This document shows positions 1,987 through 13,333 of a DNA stretch of 22,682 nt, in pieces (positions within the stretch are counted from its first letter, which is position 1; every line of letters begins with the position of its first letter). The position numbers were made by a program, and so were the translations under genes. A model generated the notes under the pieces. It did not search any database. It saw only the letters and a program-made list of their open reading frames with translations, and was not told where the DNA came from. The DNA is taken from positions 1 through 22,682 of IMG/VR virus record IMGVR_UViG_3300025138_000401; one strand, given 5' to 3'. The DNA comes from a virus.

Positions 1987-2275
1987 TTTATATAAACCAT
2001 GGTTTGCTGATAAAAACCAATGGGGATTTGAAATATTATCTGGAGATTACCAAGGTTTAGTTGTGCAGTTAGAAAATATTGATATGATAGAAGAAGCTAA
2101 AAAAGGTATTGGTGTTAATTATCATATTATTCATAAACCAGATATTGTATCAAAAGATATGATGAAAAGTGAAATCCTCAACCAAACTTTTGATTTGATT
2201 ATTAACGATATTTTAACGGAGGCAATGCAAATTGATGTCAATAGAAATAACAATATTAAGGAATCTAATACATAA
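1973..2275 (+). CDS. Small conserved-position protein between uvsX and gp41 (unknown function)
   Basis: A 100-aa soluble, mildly acidic protein beginning MLRNDLYKPWFADKNQWGFE. I do not recognise a domain. The start at 1973 is chosen because AAGGAG is 7 bases upstream; the gene overlaps the end of uvsX by 14 bases and the start of the helicase gene by about 40 bases, suggesting translational coupling. T4 has gene 40 in the same place (uvsX-40-41), but I see no clear sequence relation, so only the position is shared. Codon use matches the neighbours. Function could lie in replication or simply be a small accessory role. Confidence 0.8.
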   Translation: MLRNDLYKPWFADKNQWGFEILSGDYQGLVVQLENIDMIEEAKKGIGVNYHIIHKPDIVSKDMMKSEILNQTFDLIINDILTEAMQIDVNRNNNIKESNT

Positions 2276-3626
2276 CGAAGATTACTTAAGAAAGGTAGTA
2301 CCATTTTTAAAGGATGAGTATTTTTACGATCAAAGTCAAAAAATTATATTTAATTTAATAAATGATTTTGTAAAGAAATATAATAAAACACCCACAGAAG
2401 AATCACTGCAAATAGCACTACAAGATAGTAATGTATCAGAGACATATTTTGAACAAGCCAAAAAACTCTTATCAGAACTTAAAATAGAAAAAATAGATGA
2501 AAATTGGTTGTATGATAATACAGAGAAATTTTGCAAAGATAAAGCTGTATATAACGCCATACTCAAGTCTATTTCAATAATTGATGGAAAGGATAAACTA
2601 TTATCGAAAGAAGGTATACCCGATATATTGACAGAAGCACTTGGTGTTAGTTTTGATCGATCTGTTGGTCATGATTACATAGATGATGCAGAATCGCGAT
2701 ATGATTTCTATAATCGTAAAGAAGATAGAATACCTCTTGATTTATATTATTTAAACAAGATTACACAGGGTGGAATCCCCAATAAAACGCTAAACATAGT
2801 TATGGCAGGCACTGGGGTAGGTAAGTCGTTATTCATGTGTCATATAGCGTCTAGCATTCTTTCTCAAGGTAAGAATGTACTTTACATAACATTAGAGATG
2901 GCGGAAGAAAGAATAGCAGAAAGACTTGATGCAAATTTGCTTAATATAGAGTTAGATCAAATTAAAGATTTGCCTAAAGACATGTATAACAGCCGTATAG
3001 ACAAGTACTCTAAGAAGACTAATGGGAAACTAATAGTAAAAGAATATCCAACTGCCACAGCGCATGCTGGCCATTTTAAAGCACTATTAGGTGAGCTATC
3101 ACTGAAAAGAGATTTTCATCCGGATATTATATTTATTGATTATTTAAACATATGCGCTTCTTCCAGATTCAAGGCAGGGACAAATGTTAATTCTTATACA
3201 TATATAAAAGCGATAGCTGAAGAATTAAGAGGTCTAGCTGTAGAATATAATCTACCTGTCGTGTCAGCTACTCAGGTTAATAGATCTGCGTACGGGAGCT
3301 CTGATGTAGAGTTGACAGACACATCCGAATCATTCGGTTTGCCAGCCACAGCAGATTTTATGTTTGCACTTGTCAGTACTGAAGAATTAGAAGAAATGAA
3401 TCAACTGATGGTTAAACAATTGAAAAATCGTTATAATGATCCAACAATTAATAGAAGATTTATTATTGGTGTTGATAGAGCTAAAATGAGATTGTATGAT
3501 GTTGATGACTCCGCACAAAGTAACATTATTGACAATGATGGAACAAAAAAGGATAATATAGATTACTCACTTAAAAATTTATTTAATGGAAATGCAGATC
3601 CTGATTTTTCTGGGATAAAAGTATAG
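2235..3626 (+). CDS. 41: DnaB-family replicative helicase (T4 gp41-like)
   Basis: Hexameric 5'-3' helicase that unwinds the fork and stimulates the gp61 primase (also in this window, at 21200). The N-terminal domain (residues 1-140) begins with a pattern like T4-type gp41, with the FLKDEYF segment near residue 24. The RecA-fold domain has Walker A AGTGVGKS at 191-198, the LEMAEERIAER segment near 220-230, Walker B IIFIDY at 298-303, and a Q/R-bearing segment with TQVNRSAYGSS near 346-355. Length (463 aa) matches the family. Start: ATG 2235 is chosen; a TTG three bases earlier is in frame and slightly better placed from GGAGG at 2218-2222. The acidic tail (NGNADPDFSGIKV) may contact partner proteins; that is inference. 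Confidence 0.95.
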   Translation: MSIEITILRNLIHNEDYLRKVVPFLKDEYFYDQSQKIIFNLINDFVKKYNKTPTEESLQIALQDSNVSETYFEQAKKLLSELKIEKIDENWLYDNTEKFCKDKAVYNAILKSISIIDGKDKLLSKEGIPDILTEALGVSFDRSVGHDYIDDAESRYDFYNRKEDRIPLDLYYLNKITQGGIPNKTLNIVMAGTGVGKSLFMCHIASSILSQGKNVLYITLEMAEERIAERLDANLLNIELDQIKDLPKDMYNSRIDKYSKKTNGKLIVKEYPTATAHAGHFKALLGELSLKRDFHPDIIFIDYLNICASSRFKAGTNVNSYTYIKAIAEELRGLAVEYNLPVVSATQVNRSAYGSSDVELTDTSESFGLPATADFMFALVSTEELEEMNQLMVKQLKNRYNDPTINRRFIIGVDRAKMRLYDVDDSAQSNIIDNDGTKKDNIDYSLKNLFNGNADPDFSGIKV

Positions 3627-3634
3627 GAGAATAA

Positions 3635-4282
3635 GTGTATTTAAGTACTACAATAGATAATGCTATAGAAGACAATAAATCTAAGTTTGTTTGTAAACAA
3701 TCTTATCGCAACCTATTAGTTGTGCTTAATGATACTTTTGATGATAAAGATTTAGATATAAAAATAGAAAAATATGATGACTTCAATCATAACGAATTCA
3801 GTTTTACTGGGTTGTATGATATGTATGAAAATAAAAAATATGTTGTAATGAATGTATCTAAAAAACACAAAAAATTTGAGTTAAGCAATAAAATTTTTAA
3901 AGATTTTAAATTTCTTTTATCTCAAGTTATTCAGCATGAATCAATCCATCAATGTCAGTGGTCATATAAACCTGAAGAGAAAGAGCCTGTTCATGTTGAC
4001 TTTAGGGACTGTGGTGTTGGAACATCTATTAAAGAAGAACAATTGTATCTTTCGAATATAGATGAAATAGAAGCATATGGACATGATATTGCTTTAGAAA
4101 TAAGACATTTTTATCCTAATTCTAATCCTCTACACGTTCTTAGATATTTAAATAGATATAAAAAATTATCTTCTTTTTTTATATATAAAAGAGCATTTAA
4201 AAATATAGAATGGCAAAAAATTAAGACTAAATTGCTTAAACACACATACAAATGGATTAGAACATGGAATACTACACATTAA
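3635..4282 (+). CDS. Zincin-like (HExxH) metallopeptidase-like protein
   Basis: A 215-aa protein with HESIH at residues 101-105, the HExxH zinc-binding signature, inside a predicted helix (QVIQHESIHQCQW). The downstream DEIEAYGHDIA (143-153) supplies a glutamate suitable as third zinc ligand, as in gluzincin-type small peptidases. The rest is charged and soluble, with no signal peptide. GTG at 3635 is the start, with a strong AGGAGAA a few bases upstream of it. It directly follows gp41 in the replication cluster. Similar HExxH proteins occur in marine T4-like phages without known substrate. A catalytic or purely structural zinc role is possible; family membership is inferred from motif and context only. 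Confidence 0.75.
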   Translation: MYLSTTIDNAIEDNKSKFVCKQSYRNLLVVLNDTFDDKDLDIKIEKYDDFNHNEFSFTGLYDMYENKKYVVMNVSKKHKKFELSNKIFKDFKFLLSQVIQHESIHQCQWSYKPEEKEPVHVDFRDCGVGTSIKEEQLYLSNIDEIEAYGHDIALEIRHFYPNSNPLHVLRYLNRYKKLSSFFIYKRAFKNIEWQKIKTKLLKHTYKWIRTWNTTH

Positions 4283-4440
4283 TGGATTTTAGTTATATTT
4301 GTTTATTACTCGCCACTTGCGTTCTTGTATACTATTCAGGTAAGCAAAAAGGTGCGGGTGAGATGTGTGAGATGTTATTAGATGAGAGAATAATAAAGAA
4401 TAGTGATCTTGATAAATTAAATGAAAAATACAATAAGTAA
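4282..4440 (+). CDS. Small single-pass membrane protein
   Basis: A 52-aa product starting at ATG 4282, which overlaps the previous stop as TAATG; an upstream in-frame ATG at 4264 would add six residues. A hydrophobic helix (YICLLLATCVLVYY) is followed by a cytoplasmic-type polar tail with GAGEMCEMLLDERI and a charged end. The topology suggests an N-out inner-membrane anchor with a short tail. I cannot assign a function; small membrane proteins of this kind are common in T4-like early regions and may modify the host envelope. The next gene has its own promoter, so this is probably the last gene of the upstream transcript. Confidence 0.65.
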   Translation: MDFSYICLLLATCVLVYYSGKQKGAGEMCEMLLDERIIKNSDLDKLNEKYNK

Positions 4441-4447
4441 CACACAG

Positions 4448-4476
4448 TTGACATATAATAAATAATATAGTATTAT
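4448..4476 (+). promoter_or_regulatory. Sigma-70-type promoter
   Basis: TTGACA at 4448-4453, a 17-base spacer and TATTAT at 4471-4476 give a perfect -35 and a near-perfect -10 box. Transcription is predicted to start near 4483 and read into the winged-helix gene. This is the best host-type promoter visible in the window and implies early expression by unmodified host RNA polymerase. Confidence 0.8.
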
Positions 4477-4517
4477 AAAAGGGTAGTATAATTTTAATTA
4501 ACTTGGAGATTCAATTT

Positions 4518-4781
4518 ATGAAATTCGATACCAAAACAATCCGTGGCTTTGTTCTAGCACAACTTTTTGATGGTAAAGCTATTACAGCTTCAACAGTAGC
4601 TAAGAAGTTTGGTACTTCTTCAAACTCAGTATCAGCTCGCATTAATGAGCTTAGATCAGAGGGGTTTTCGATTTATGGTAATTCAAACTCTAAAGGCATC
4701 AAGTCTTATAAACTTGGTACACCTTCAAGAGCAATGGTAGCAGCTGCATATGCTTCACAAGGAAGTGCAGTATTTAGTTAA
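4518..4781 (+). CDS. Winged helix-turn-helix DNA-binding protein
   Basis: An 87-aa protein. Residues 5-50 read as a winged helix: a first helix (IRGFVLAQLFDGK), ITASTVAKKFG, then a recognition helix NSVSARINELRSEG, and a wing (FSIYGN through IKSYKL). The tail KLGTPSRAMVAAAY is characteristic of a family of small HTH proteins frequent in marine T4-like phages. ATG 4518 is preferred over TTG 4503 because GGAG at 4505-4508 lies 9 bases before it. It has its own sigma-70 promoter and terminator, so it is probably expressed early and alone. Likely a transcriptional regulator; target unknown. Confidence 0.85.
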   Translation: MKFDTKTIRGFVLAQLFDGKAITASTVAKKFGTSSNSVSARINELRSEGFSIYGNSNSKGIKSYKLGTPSRAMVAAAYASQGSAVFS

Positions 4782-4897
4782 GTTTCACAATACGGACATG
4801 GGCGTACACCTCCTCTCTTCCTCCCGCCCTCCTAAAAATGCCGCTAGATGGTCGTAACTAGCACTTATTTACTAAACCCGCTTCGGCGGGTTTTTTT
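4782..4897 (+). ncRNA. Structured C-rich 3' segment with anti-Shine-Dalgarno motifs (candidate sRNA or regulatory 3' UTR)
   Basis: Between the HTH stop codon and the terminator the + strand carries a pyrimidine-rich stretch (about 4807-4833) unlike the AT-rich surroundings. GGGCG (4800-4804) can pair with CGCCC (4825-4829), leaving a 20-base loop that contains CACCTCCT (4807-4814) and a second CCTCC; a third CCTCCT-like element follows at 4828-4833. CACCTCCT is identical to the conserved anti-Shine-Dalgarno region at the bacterial 16S rRNA 3' end. A second hairpin pairs GCTAG (4843-4847) with CTAGC (4858-4862). No ORF fits. It is transcribed with the HTH mRNA or could be processed from it. 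The structure is by eye, not folded computationally. Confidence 0.4.
4874..4897 (+). terminator. Rho-independent terminator with UUCG tetraloop
   Basis: An 8-bp perfect stem, AAACCCGC (4874-4881) with GCGGGTTT (4886-4893), closes on the extra-stable TTCG loop and runs into a T tract ending at 4897. The T tract is only on the + side, so it terminates the HTH transcript and separates it from the late block. Confidence 0.93.
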
Positions 4898-4911
4898 ATG
4901 TTAATAAAATA

Positions 4912-4919
4912 GATAAATA
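4912..4919 (+). promoter_or_regulatory. T4-type late promoter box, one mismatch
   Basis: GATAAATA followed by CT differs from the T4 late consensus TATAAATACT at one base. It lies between the terminator and the ATG at 4925, a logical place for a late promoter. Using T4 spacing (last A at -6) the predicted +1 is 4925, the A of the start codon. The one-mismatch octamer also occurs inside uvsX, so context carries most of the weight. Confidence 0.5.
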
Positions 4920-4924
4920 CTCGT

Positions 4925-6409
4925 ATGGCAGAACTCACTAAAGATGAATTTTTTAAGTTTTCAAAAGTTGTTGGTTACAGACCAACTGTTCTAGCTCAAG
5001 CTTTTTCTAATGCATATTTGAGAAAACAGTCAGTACAATTGACTATGAAAGGTTCAAAAAATGTATCAAAATCTAGCGCTAAACCAGAAATAAGAGTTTT
5101 TGTTCCTTCAAGCACTTTAGTTAGAAAGTTAAAAGATTTAGAATTAGCTAAAATAGGTGAATCGAGTGCTTTACAAAAATTTAATAGTTTGGAATTGATT
5201 GATGTATTAGGTGATAAATTTAATATTACTAATATTGTTAAGACTAATATGTTTGGAGGAGGTATAGGTGCTAGAGGAGGAACGGCTACTGCAGATAAGA
5301 CTGAACTATTAGTTGCCTTTGGTGTGGCATTGGCTTTTGCGAAGGCCAAGACAATTGATGGCAATGATTTGAGCAATAAAAGGTTAGTTGACACAGCTAT
5401 AAGTAACACGCATAATGGTGCTTCAATTGATCAATATATTCAAGAAATTGAAAATGGTGATTTATATAATATGATACAATCTGCAAATGTGATATATAAT
5501 AAATTAAATAGTTTTGGGTTTAGAGGAACAATTCATACACATTTTAATGATGCTGTAGTAAAACATGTTTACAATGCTTATAAAGAGTGTAAAAAAAATG
5601 ACTTAGATAAACAAGCTCCAGGTACTTTTGCACCAGATAAATGGAATCCTGGTGATATATGGGTATCTAATTCTAATAATCCAAATGATTTTATTCTTCC
5701 TACAACAAACTGGGGTGAACTTAACAAATCTATATTAAATTATGCTCTCGATACAAGTAGTCAAAAAAGATTAATTGGCATATCATTAAAAAAAGTTATT
5801 GAACCAAGAAAACCAACAGTTACAGAATTTAATAAAGATCCAAAATTAAAACGGTCTTTTATATTTAAAGGTTTTACAATATCATCAGAAACCAAAAAAG
5901 ATACGAGTGCTTTTTTTGATACTTCAAAAACTTTCATTTATGTCCTTAATGGAAAAACTGAATTTAGAAACTTTAATGGTAGCAAAAATTTTCAAGCAGA
6001 ATTACAAGGAATAACTGCAGCGGCAGGAAAGGTTGGAGCAGGTAACATAGTTCATTTTTTAAAAGAAGCTGGTGTCAATAGTAATATAGATATTAACAAT
6101 TATGATTTTGATAAAAATAATAAAGTATTAATGAAATATTTTTACAATCTTTATAAAGAACTTTCAGAACATAGCAGCAATCTTAATAAAACACCCATTG
6201 TAGATTTTAATTCATTTCAAGCAGGAATAAACAAAAGATTTAGTAAAGATCAAACTGTTGGTTTTGCTACTTCAAAATTAAAAGGAATGAAAATTATTAA
6301 AAATTTATTAGATGCAACAGCAAACGAAAGAAATAAATTTATTACTAGTGCAGGATTATATGGTTCTTCGCAATCAACGCAGAGTTCATTTCATTTAAAG
6401 GTACAATAA
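4925..6409 (+). CDS. Large protein of unknown function, first gene of the late block; possible PD-(D/E)XK-like fold
   Basis: A 494-aa soluble protein I cannot assign securely. Visible segments: a basic N-terminal part (residues 1-60), a Gly-rich stretch FGGGIGARGG at 110-119 followed by ADKTELLVAFG (123-133), then PDKWNPGDIWV at 237-247, LIGISLKKV at 283-291, and a helical C-terminal half with TAAAGKVG. The order Glu (127), Asp in PGDIW (244) and SLKK (287-290) resembles the E...D...(D/E/S)xK layout of restriction-like nucleases, where ISLK strands occur in some enzymes. This is a pattern by eye and weak. No Shine-Dalgarno precedes the ATG; the late box sits 5 bases upstream. Its stop overlaps the next ATG, so the two are probably co-translated. 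Confidence 0.85.
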   Translation: MAELTKDEFFKFSKVVGYRPTVLAQAFSNAYLRKQSVQLTMKGSKNVSKSSAKPEIRVFVPSSTLVRKLKDLELAKIGESSALQKFNSLELIDVLGDKFNITNIVKTNMFGGGIGARGGTATADKTELLVAFGVALAFAKAKTIDGNDLSNKRLVDTAISNTHNGASIDQYIQEIENGDLYNMIQSANVIYNKLNSFGFRGTIHTHFNDAVVKHVYNAYKECKKNDLDKQAPGTFAPDKWNPGDIWVSNSNNPNDFILPTTNWGELNKSILNYALDTSSQKRLIGISLKKVIEPRKPTVTEFNKDPKLKRSFIFKGFTISSETKKDTSAFFDTSKTFIYVLNGKTEFRNFNGSKNFQAELQGITAAAGKVGAGNIVHFLKEAGVNSNIDINNYDFDKNNKVLMKYFYNLYKELSEHSSNLNKTPIVDFNSFQAGINKRFSKDQTVGFATSKLKGMKIIKNLLDATANERNKFITSAGLYGSSQSTQSSFHLKVQ

Positions 6410-10600: not shown

Positions 10601-11483
10601 TGGTGGAGCATGGATTAAATTAATTGATCAACCAACCTTAGATGCTGTAAAAATAGGTGGTTATTCAATTACAAGTGGTGTTACAAATCCACAATCTAAT
10701 TCACAAATTTCAAATATTGTTATTAGTTCAGGAGTCTTAAAATCAGCTAATGTTACCGAACTAACAAATTTATTCTTCACAAACGCTAGAGCAAATGCAA
10801 TGATAGCATCAAATGCTATTATTGGTGGTTATTCTTTATCTGATGGTATAACTAATCCACAATCTAATTCAAGAATATCAAACATTGTTGTTAGTTCGGG
10901 AGTGTTAAAATCAGCTAATATTTCTGATTTAGTTTCAACAGCAAGAGGTTCTTTATCAAAAGCAGATGGTGCTGGTGCTTATAATACAGGCACAGGCGTA
11001 ATTACTATTCCAGCAACAACTGCTCATGTTGCAGAATCAGCTTCTGGATTGTATTTTTCTAACACAAGAGCAAATGGTACAATATCAGCCAATGTTCAAC
11101 ATTCATTAGTAAGATCATTAACATTAGCTGCTTCTGATGAGACAACTGATTTAACTACTGGCACAGCTAAGGTTACATTTAGAGCTCCATTTGCAATGAC
11201 ATTGCCAGCAACTCCATTACCTAGAATATCAGTACAAACTGCTCCTGTTGGAGGTACTCCACCTCTTATAGTTGATATTAATGAAGGTGGTTCAACAATA
11301 CTTAGTACAAAACTTACTATTGATGAGAATGAAACAACTTCAAAGACTGCTGCCACACCATGTGTTGTTTCTGATGCTACAATTGCTGATGACGCTATTA
11401 TAACTGTAGATATTGATCAAATAGGAAGTTCTACAGCTGGAAAAGGTTTAAAATTAACACTTTATTATACGGTGACTGAATAA
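7689..11483 (+). CDS. Tail fibre protein, coiled-coil plus repeats
   Basis: A 1264-aa structural protein. Residues about 1-460 are Lys/Glu/Asn/Ile-rich and coiled-coil-like, without Gly or Pro breaks. Near 474-500 comes FDQLKKHYQMFIGRVQQQL followed by GGGG and an IDQLDDV segment, a junction typical of T4-like marine phage fibres. Residues about 560-1130 are Ser/Asn/Gly/Ile-rich repeats with the recurring phrase SNIVISSGVLKSANISD and units ending in TNLFFTNARAN. The C-terminal 120 residues (SLTLAASDETTDLTTGTAKV onward, with VDINEGG and VDIDQIG) form a domain seen at the ends of many phage fibres. It likely forms a trimeric fibre, with the long coiled coil as shaft. The next gene starts in the stop (TAATG) and encodes an adhesin-like partner. 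Preceded by a perfect late box. Confidence 0.93.
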   Translation: MKKFNQHNKESKNSKEEVPSSDSNNSLLENFTKKYGLHVNNVEKTNSTVNLFEDIISKLDQYVKKDELSDFLFNQIVVLKEQFEDFKTNVNNLNQQKNQEITNDVESIISRAKLVIENVDKESSLYKKKYYEDIIDTDKKFQEIDYKFSNLDYNSIQEKIENFNIQLANLEEVTIPKQNKKVNKFIIENEESIKNVNETNNKLKNVVTEILVDFENKLDNLSETFLTNDKLDVTNKNYNKKIVEVHNQVERIRKDFTKVDNHFTLSKDQFKDIGDKLNSVTENIFGVEQRIKAERDKQNYKIVEADTKLDKKIEDVESKNDDKLNEITKNVDIFKKDVSADLNVIGEEFDKEIVNTRKQLDRKISDVKIEQNKVDTKLKKLFNEEFKSVSKDLKTTNVKFDKQLNKYKLLEDKTKILMDEVKLVFKDEKLTDIDKKISFLEETLEKFNEKTVLTENLVNVPSETNRDPLTPLNQDYVTFDQLKKHYQMFIGRVQQQLMSLGGGGAVRIDQLDDVNIRDSQGTIKATNGQSLVYITASGKFEPISVGAAAGEVSTVGGAQGAISNAQILQFFTSGVAANVGNLSLSGNIIPDADNVHSLGTESLRFKDLFLSGNTFKLGGLTLKDTGGKLAVTDSADEVILEASESTPGLTSADLTVANIAGYASNLDTRFTGANVGGALTGGTDIEITAGGTLNFTGSGGSGVASIGGYNGTMVNTMISNIVISSGVLKAANISDFTTSARSSFSGGTDIEITGGGAINFTGSGGSGVASIGGYSGTMVNTQISNIVISSGVLRTNNVTEDTNLYFTNDRANAMIASNAIIGGYSLSDGITNPQSNSRVSNIVISSGVLKSANISDLVSTARGSLSKADGAGAYNTGTGVITIPSTTAHISEYTNLFYANGRANSTIVANLNYSNVDYMSNLIGSTTQIQLTSEKNFIRFYAANQSAFPAAGDYHGAIMHSHADAGMYFAHGGAWIKLIDQPTLDAVKIGGYSITSGVTNPQSNSQISNIVISSGVLKSANVTELTNLFFTNARANAMIASNAIIGGYSLSDGITNPQSNSRISNIVVSSGVLKSANISDLVSTARGSLSKADGAGAYNTGTGVITIPATTAHVAESASGLYFSNTRANGTISANVQHSLVRSLTLAASDETTDLTTGTAKVTFRAPFAMTLPATPLPRISVQTAPVGGTPPLIVDINEGGSTILSTKLTIDENETTSKTAATPCVVSDATIADDAIITVDIDQIGSSTAGKGLKLTLYYTVTE
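9729..10067 (+). repeat. Tail-fibre tandem repeat, A units
   Basis: Two in-frame copies, 9729-9872 and 9924-10067 (offset 195 bases, 65 residues). Both encode GGTDIEIT, then FTGSGGSGVASIGGY, then SNIVISSGVL with few changes. They are part of the fibre shaft. Confidence 0.85.
10119..11036 (+). repeat. Tail-fibre long repeat, B units
   Basis: Two 246-base copies, 10119-10364 and 10791-11036 (offset 672 bases, 224 residues, in frame), encode ANAMIASNAIIGGYSLSDG through TTAH with only a few residue changes. DNA differences are mainly at third positions, so the copies are older than a recent duplication. A partial related unit (IGGYSITSGVTNPQSNS) lies between them at about 10653-10760. Confidence 0.87.
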
Positions 11484-13333
11484 TGGGGTTTTTATTAAAT
11501 TCATATTTTTTTGCGAGTGGTGGTGGTGGTGCAACGATTGATGTAATCGATACATTTACAAGTGATGGCATATGGACCTGTCCAACTGATGTAACTAGCA
11601 TTGAATACCTAATAGTAGGAGGAGGTGGAGCAGGTGGATCAGGATATTCTGGAGGAGGTGGTGGAGCTGGAGGCTTTAGAACAGGCACAGGTTTCCCTGT
11701 AACAGCTGGACAAGATTATACTATAGAAGTAGGTAATGGTGGAGAGAAAGGAGGTTATCCTAGCAAAGGAGGAAATGGGGGAGGTTCATCAATACAGGGT
11801 GGCTCACCAGCATTACATATTGGTTCTAATGGTGGTGGTGGTGGAGGAACATCAGGTAGTGCAGCTGGTCCTTCCCTTGCAGGATTAGTTGCAGGTCAAT
11901 CAGGAGGTTCTGGTGGAGGGGCAGCTTCAATCAAAGCTGGTGCAATTATAGGTGCAGATTTATCATTAACGACTAATAATGGTCATGCTACATCATATAC
12001 TGGTACAACACAAAATAATCCATTTCCTGTACAAGGTTTTGATGGTGGAACTGGATTAGATGGTCAATCAGTTGTAACAGTAGCTGGTGGTGGAGGAGGA
12101 GCTAAAGAAGTTGGTGTTTCTGTTCCTGGTCCTAACTCAACTGCCAGACCTGGTGGCAATGGTGGAGATGGTTTAGCTTCAGATATAACTGGCACTCCAG
12201 TAACTTATGCTGGAGGGGGTGGTGGTGGAACAGATGCTGGTGGTGGAGCTGGAGCTTCAAGAGGAGGAACAGGTGGTGCAGGTGGAGGAGGTACTGGAGG
12301 TACCAGAACTCATGTAGTTTCAACAGCTGGAACCGTTAATTTAGGTGGTGGTGGAGGAGGAGGAGGAGGAATAAACAGTAATCCACAGTGGCCAGGTGCC
12401 AATGGTGGTTCTGGTATAGTAGTTTTAAAATATGCAATTGAAGATGGAGCAGTGTTTACATTTAAGGGATCAACCACATTTAAAATACCAACAGATGTAA
12501 CAACATTTGATTATATAATAGCAGGAGGTGGTGGTGCTAGTGGATATCATTTCAGTGCTGATAAAGGATCAGCTGGTGGAGGAGCAGGTGGATTGAGAAT
12601 AGGTACAGGTGTCCCATGTACTGCTGGACAAACATTAGCTATAACAGTTGGTGCTGGTGGAGCTGGAGATGGCGGCCCTTCATATGGTCCTGCTGGAAGC
12701 GATTCTAAAATTGTGTCTCCATCACCCTCATTTACTATAACAGGCAGTGGTGGTGGCGGAGGAGGAGTGGGAGCAGCAAATCCAGGTCACCCTGGTGGGC
12801 CAGGTGGAAGTGGTGGAGGTAGTGTAAGAGGTGGAACAGCTGGTGGAACAATAGCAGTACCTTCTCCTCCAGGAACAGCATCTGATCCATACCCAGTTCA
12901 AGGTCATGTTGGTGGAAGTGGTCCAGGCAATGCTGATGGAGGTGCAGGTGGAGGTGGAGCAGACGAAGCAGGATTTAATGGTCCAGGCACAGGAGCTCCA
13001 GCTCGTCTTGGTGGTAGAAGATCTCCATATGTTATGGACGCCGCAAATACTCAAGGCGGAACAGGGGGTAATGGCGTTGCTTCGACTATGTCTGGTGCAA
13101 CTGTTTATTATGCTGGTGGTGGAGGTGGTGGTTCGTATTATGGCATGGGCGCGGCAGGTGGTTTAGGAGGTGGTGGTGCTGGTGGAGATGTGCTTGCAAA
13201 TCCAGCAAATGGCGAAGATGGTACAGCTTTCACAGGTGGTGGAGGTGGTGGTGCTTCTGGTCAAAATACTGGAACTCAGCCTGGTAGAAGTGGTGGATCG
13301 GGTGTAGTTTTAATTAAAATTAATACTGGCTAA
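11483..13333 (+). CDS. Glycine-rich tail-fibre adhesin with internal duplication
   Basis: A 616-aa, extremely Gly-rich protein directly after the tail fibre, sharing TAATG overlap. Residues 24-45 (TFTSDGIWTCPTDVT then an IEYLIVGGGG strand) and 325-347 (FTFKGSTTFKIPTDVT then IIAGGGG) begin two homologous halves; each continues through GGAGG(F/L)R.GTG.P.TAGQ and many GGGG turns and ends in GGSG(I/V)V(V/L)(L)K. This is the layout of Gly-rich phage adhesins in which poly-Gly loops form a polyglycine-II-like receptor-binding tip, as in T2/S16-type gp38. Position supports a receptor-recognition role at the fibre end. It contains a (GGA)6 run at 12353-12370. All long minus-strand frames here are shadows of the Gly codons. 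Confidence 0.9.
   Translation: MGFLLNSYFFASGGGGATIDVIDTFTSDGIWTCPTDVTSIEYLIVGGGGAGGSGYSGGGGGAGGFRTGTGFPVTAGQDYTIEVGNGGEKGGYPSKGGNGGGSSIQGGSPALHIGSNGGGGGGTSGSAAGPSLAGLVAGQSGGSGGGAASIKAGAIIGADLSLTTNNGHATSYTGTTQNNPFPVQGFDGGTGLDGQSVVTVAGGGGGAKEVGVSVPGPNSTARPGGNGGDGLASDITGTPVTYAGGGGGGTDAGGGAGASRGGTGGAGGGGTGGTRTHVVSTAGTVNLGGGGGGGGGINSNPQWPGANGGSGIVVLKYAIEDGAVFTFKGSTTFKIPTDVTTFDYIIAGGGGASGYHFSADKGSAGGGAGGLRIGTGVPCTAGQTLAITVGAGGAGDGGPSYGPAGSDSKIVSPSPSFTITGSGGGGGGVGAANPGHPGGPGGSGGGSVRGGTAGGTIAVPSPPGTASDPYPVQGHVGGSGPGNADGGAGGGGADEAGFNGPGTGAPARLGGRRSPYVMDAANTQGGTGGNGVASTMSGATVYYAGGGGGGSYYGMGAAGGLGGGGAGGDVLANPANGEDGTAFTGGGGGGASGQNTGTQPGRSGGSGVVLIKINTG
12353..12370 (+). repeat. (GGA)6 trinucleotide run
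   Basis: Six GGA codons preceded by three GGT codons (12344-12352). Slippage would change Gly number without shifting frame. Confidence 0.8.

Follow-up and report, generated by a model that had tools for sequence, protein, structure and literature searches.

What might a phage gain from an abruptly C-rich stretch of RNA that carries the anti-Shine-Dalgarno (anti-SD) sequence and lies directly behind a small regulator gene? The question is raised by a virus record of 22,682 bases, the whole of which was analyzed here (the window). The window encodes UvsX, a primase-like gene, and a DnaB-type helicase (gp41) closest to those of marine T4-like phages (61-65% identity). The regulator gene (4518-4781, + strand; ATG at 4518, SD GGAG at 4505-4508) codes for an 87-aa protein that matches HTH and phrog_4973 in Pfam and PHROG. 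Structure prediction models it as a winged helix (wHTH; pLDDT 75), and the nearest solved folds in structure comparison are MarR/ArsR-type, none at E <= 0.001. Its sole match among phage records is from Pelagibacter phage HTVC008M (Kyanoviridae); our guess for the host of the window phage is SAR11. The HTH homologue is encoded in at least 506 viral stretches, and scanning bacterial and archaeal genomes turned up no relative, hence no prophage or host link. Elsewhere in the window, a 108-aa gene listed from ATG 1949 has AGGAG at 1961 and an alternative ATG at 1973, probably its true start.

A sequence scan recovered the two signals that the first-pass annotation had placed around this gene, a sigma-70-type promoter (TTGACA-N17-TATTAT, 4448-4476, + strand) and a UUCG intrinsic terminator with a T-run (4874-4897, + strand). 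Together with the terminator hairpin call (4874-4893), also seen in the predicted fold, the promoter is the only good + strand candidate around the HTH gene; no promoter-like site was found on the + strand over 4477-5387. By eye, -35 and -10 hexamers with 16-17 nt spacing lie upstream of the HTH gene in loci L001, L002, L003, L004, and L073, where the spacer diverges although the hexamers stay recognizable. The terminator is kept in relatives and rearranged in L004. Promoter, small protein, C-rich-loop RNA, and terminator form one unit, as at the CIN1 locus considered below, and the structured RNA shares the intrinsic terminator of the HTH mRNA, as expected of a 3'UTR-derived sRNA. The 3'UTR location, the shared terminator, and the conserved upstream promoter support the earlier proposal of a phage sRNA or 3' UTR; a small transcript may be derived from this unit.

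The C-rich character of the tail is real and exceeds chance. Positions 4807-4832 are the most C-over-G-rich 26 nt on the + strand of the window, and neither their C-over-G excess of 16 nor three CCTCC within a comparable span was reached in any of 200 dinucleotide shuffles of the window. CACCTCCT, located at exactly 4807-4814 as previously claimed, occurs by itself in 4 of 200 such shuffles. The three CCTCC-type elements reported earlier are present at 4809, 4820, and 4828, the third being partly stem. Most antisense CCTCC matches in the window come from the gene of a glycine-rich 616-aa protein (11483-13333) with GGAGGA repeats, which also gives the strongest predicted loop-binding sites; both are probably meaningless.

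The structured RNA occupies 4793-4862 in the tail of the wHTH gene and is followed by the UUCG terminator. Its P1 hairpin (4795-4842) presents the 20-base C-rich loop UACACCUCCUCUCUUCCUCC (4805-4824). In the outer helix, P1a, GACAU (4795-4799) pairs with AUGCC (4838-4842; AUGUC in L003 and L004), with one A-C mismatch in the window; in P1b, GGGCG (4800-4804) pairs with CGCCC (4825-4829). The loop, with an unpaired probability of 0.87-1.00 in modelled transcripts, contains the core CCUCCUCUCUUCC (4809-4821) and the segment CACCUCCU (4807-4814), identical to the anti-SD stretch of 16S rRNA. The 3' arm of P1a abuts a second hairpin, P2 (4843-4862), in which GCUAG and CUAGC enclose the loop AUGGUCGUAA, ending in CGUAA. 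The P1b pairing and its loop with two CCTCC had been described before and are borne out by the sequence and the predicted fold of the window tail (z = -1.96), while P2 and P1a had been overlooked. Folding z across sequences ranges from -0.03 to -3.0, so that stability alone is weak evidence; on the alignments described below, covariation rather than thermodynamic stability carries the structural case.

In five relatives forming a close marine clade, the 72-nt RNA core is 85-100% identical and the adjacent HTH gene 56-96% (RNA and gene, respectively: L063, 100 and 96%; L065, 98.6 and 82%; L072, 98.6 and 77%; L058, 88.9 and 87%; L073, 84.9 and 56%). The 13-nt loop core is unchanged throughout the clade while P1 changes by compensatory pairs. 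P1b occurs as GGGCG/CGCCC, GGGUA/UACCC, or GGGUC/GACCC, and P1a as GACAU/AUGYC or GAUAC/GUAUC, with two double-sided changes in L073. In a MAFFT alignment of the clade, four pairs change on both sides, a count lowered by the misalignment of one row in P1b; none of 500 shuffles had as many, and the paired fraction dropped to 29-53% when control structures were slid along the alignment. The genes downstream differ among L001-L004 and L073, and the RNA itself is retained. The first-pass annotation had staked its proposal on loop conservation and compensatory stem changes in related phages; both are seen here, and C-rich loops recur at greater distance. In a comparison of L058 with window positions 2232-4900, dnaB is 98.7% identical and the HTH gene and RNA just 87-89%, which suggests recombination at the HTH-RNA unit.

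An all-lineage MAFFT alignment misaligned P1 and P2, and lineage groups were therefore treated apart. Among 90 distinct tails behind the homologous HTH gene (chosen by HTH gene similarity and including many mutually close relatives, so that counts are not independent events), 44 contain a hairpin with a loop ending in GTAA, nearly always CGTAA; the expectation from shuffles is 1.1, and an upstream control gave 1. Many tails carry a second helix immediately 5' of the CGUAA hairpin, in variants such as GAGCAC/GUGCUC, GAACACUU/AAGUGUUU, GUCGCCA/UGGCGAC, GGCAC/GUGCC, and GGCGCU/AGCGCC. The P2 stem also covaries in distant relatives, its loop end staying unchanged. Eleven members form a group that we call freshwater-type, a name given on the appearance of the loci and contig sets. 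In this group, both sides change in 10 of 16 pairs, with 0 of 500 shuffles as good, and 95.9% of cells are paired versus 27-42% when the structure is slid. P1 loops of 18 lineages have a C fraction of 0.47 and a G fraction of 0.04, compared with 0.21 and 0.19 in the flanks. The marine-clade model (R2) recovers L096, another lineage with ACCUCCUCUCUCUUCCUCC, at E 2e-8, and L123 (1e-4) and L013 (0.004) are picked up by the freshwater model, each at the HTH tail. As judged from these alignments, the plan of a covarying P1, a C-rich, G-poor loop, a CGUAA hairpin, and the same gene persists in distant relatives, freshwater phages among them. A C-rich DNA pattern applied to the whole collection gave true matches behind the HTH gene alone, alongside scattered chance matches; a looser pattern was too permissive and was dropped.

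The C-rich loop is not universal. Many relatives carry just a terminator behind the HTH gene, L008, L130, L133, and L100 have P2 without a C-rich P1 loop, and several freshwater loops are C-rich yet do not match the anti-SD sequence. Behind its HTH gene, HTVC008M lacks a C-rich loop and carries two CGUAA hairpins; these hairpins are intergenic with G+C-containing stems, whereas the other CGUAA hairpins of that genome have mostly A+T stems. The HTVC008M homologue lies directly behind a gene for phage 30S ribosomal protein S21 (L080:2679-3219, corresponding to HTVC008M 91228-91768), a protein situated close to the anti-SD end of 16S rRNA. In freshwater relatives, we also noticed a candidate H-type pseudoknot in the 5'UTR just upstream of the HTH gene (L013, L133, L020, L130, L115, L118, L123, L100, L021, L009, L026, L101, L140, and L032), in which a hairpin with the loop GACCGCC is followed by a T-run and, ahead of the SD, by GGYGGGG or GCGGU. 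It has no Rfam match in the loci scanned, is absent from the window's clade, and could control the same HTH gene in riboswitch-like fashion or by binding a protein.

Where might the loop pair? The 16S tail used for comparison was a general one rather than that of a host genome. Identity to this tail beyond C-richness has p 0.05 for the window loop and about 0.013 when summed over lineages, a modest value from non-independent loops. Over the start regions of the window, mean loop duplex energy is at its minimum at -20 to -12, with the strongest pairing falling on the SD position of window genes, as it does for the 16S tail. Such a peak is expected because the loop is an anti-SD-like sequence; whole RBS regions bind it slightly better than background (-5.6 versus -4.5 kcal/mol). 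The AGGAG sites previously put forward as targets at 1960, 3629, and 18432 were found at 1961, 3625, and 18430, offset by 1-4 bases. Pairing with the unit's own GGAG at 4505, likewise put forward, is not predicted: modelling of the transcript leaves the loop core unpaired, with no contact to the HTH gene's SD. Own-SD autoregulation was rejected, the loop-SD pairing mass being about 0 in six modelled transcripts. The best start region is that of uvsX (GAGGUGUA/UACACCUC, 8 bp), a candidate target by sequence match. This match is kept in L063 and L072, differs by one base in L065, and is absent in L073, which speaks against uvsX as a conserved target.

No Rfam family fits the RNA, either at the gathering threshold in the window and 12 relatives or at low stringency on the tail. 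Known sRNAs with anti-SD loops include CcsR1-4, which lie in 3'UTRs (PMC8625941, PMC10253847), and the alpha-r14/cuckoo RNAs (PMC3927594, PMC10746234). The CIN1 locus (ccaF1-CcsR) of Rhodobacter sphaeroides resembles ours in that a small-protein gene is followed by C-rich-loop RNA and a Rho-independent terminator on one transcript (PMC10253847, PMC8625941). However, CIN1 encodes a DUF1127 protein, while Pfam and PHROG give HTH and phrog_4973 for the phage protein; CIN1 has four homologous sRNAs, and the phage locus one C-rich hairpin and a CGUAA hairpin; and the ccaF1-CcsR operon is alphaproteobacterial rather than phage-encoded. The alpha-r14/cuckoo RNAs (SmelA075, SmelA099, NfeR1; RF02344 ar14) likewise carry the anti-SD motif in loops on diverging stems (PMC3927594, PMC10746234), but their loops are CCUCCUCCC, unlike the phage loop and its core, and they have three or four motif hairpins where the phage RNA has one, its P2 loop being of a different kind. 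The ar14 model scored 16.6 bits on the tail, below the gathering cutoff of 58.8. We conclude that the phage RNA falls outside the cuckoo family; by analogy, it would work like CcsR/cuckoo RNAs if the pairing inference holds. The phage small RNAs c4, DicF, AsxR, IpeX, and CfrI are also phage-encoded regulators, and c4 acts around a ribosome-binding site from its loops. By their descriptions in a phage-sRNA review (PMC12197685), they share no sequence or architecture with the present RNA, and none represents a family residing in the 3'UTR of a wHTH gene of T4-like phages; the passages of the review that were consulted, within a search of open-licence papers, mention no such phage RNA.

We favor, at slightly better than even odds (about 0.52), the reading that the RNA is a phage 3'UTR-derived regulator pairing through its C-rich loop with SD regions. 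We hold SD pairing to be the likeliest role and not the only one because of the freshwater loops that are C-rich without an anti-SD match. The main rival, possible though considerably less probable, is a protein-binding element: the HTH protein or another phage or host protein would bind the CGUAA hairpin and C-rich loop, for autoregulation or mRNA stability without RNA-RNA pairing. It would account for the CGUAA loop end being the most widespread invariant, retained twice in HTVC008M, and is consistent with RNA and HTH gene always occurring together in the loci examined and with the pseudoknot candidate in many freshwater homologues. Protein binding alone, however, leaves unexplained both the invariant anti-SD-matching core and the C-rich, G-poor loop across lineages. 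The same core speaks against an ordinary 3' end, in which P2 and the terminator shield the HTH mRNA from 3' exonucleases. Freshwater P2 is itself followed by a terminator-like T-run, but a roleless loop would be free to drift, and it is the most conserved part of the RNA in the marine clade; we regard this explanation as unlikely.

It is also rather improbable that the loop is a decoy, whether for phage S21 or for a host factor with affinity for C-rich RNA or for the 3' end of 16S rRNA (Rho primary site, S1, IF3). The loop is rich in pyrimidines and in YC steps and imitates the 16S tail, and S21 adjoins the HTH gene in HTVC008M; the window lacks this adjacency, and in some lineages just 7-10 C-rich nt lie beside an inner hairpin, which is short for Rho. 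That the element acts as a leader controlling the downstream gene, or encodes a short peptide, is very improbable. An ATG-initiated frame of seven codons (AUG 4838, MPLDGRN) overlaps P2, and the next gene begins close behind in many freshwater loci. Neither L073 nor the freshwater members retain the frame, a terminator intervenes, and the RNA is kept while downstream genes vary; comparative data disfavor both variants.

Under SD pairing, one promoter would drive the wHTH gene and the RNA, transcription stopping at the UUCG terminator, and the RNA would either remain the tail of the mRNA or be cleaved off to give a small RNA of about 100 nt. P1 would keep the G-free, C-rich loop open as a seed, with P2 and its CGUAA loop stacked beneath P1 to provide stability or bind a protein. 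The C-rich loop would then most likely base-pair with G-rich SD regions in other mRNAs, whether from the host, the phage, or both, and block ribosome entry. The analysis establishes the sequence, the structure through covariation, the conservation of the loop, and the linkage with the HTH gene and terminator; transcription, processing, mRNA pairing, targets, and any temporal or host-versus-phage role are what we infer.

Very little is known of base-pairing RNAs in lytic T4-like phages. The family reported here has comparative structural support, a loop that suggests a mechanism, and a spread over marine and freshwater phages, and its parallel with bacterial ccaF1-CcsR operons possibly reflects independent origin of the same design. 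More tentatively, and with greater doubt than for the pairing itself, it may be a widespread, undescribed phage RNA family which, in the loci examined, invariably follows one phage-only wHTH gene. By mimicking the 16S 3' end, its members would compete with ribosomes for SD sites and redirect translation during infection by T4-like phages of marine and freshwater bacteria. The family offers a direct test of whether T4-like phages steer translation by anti-SD RNA.
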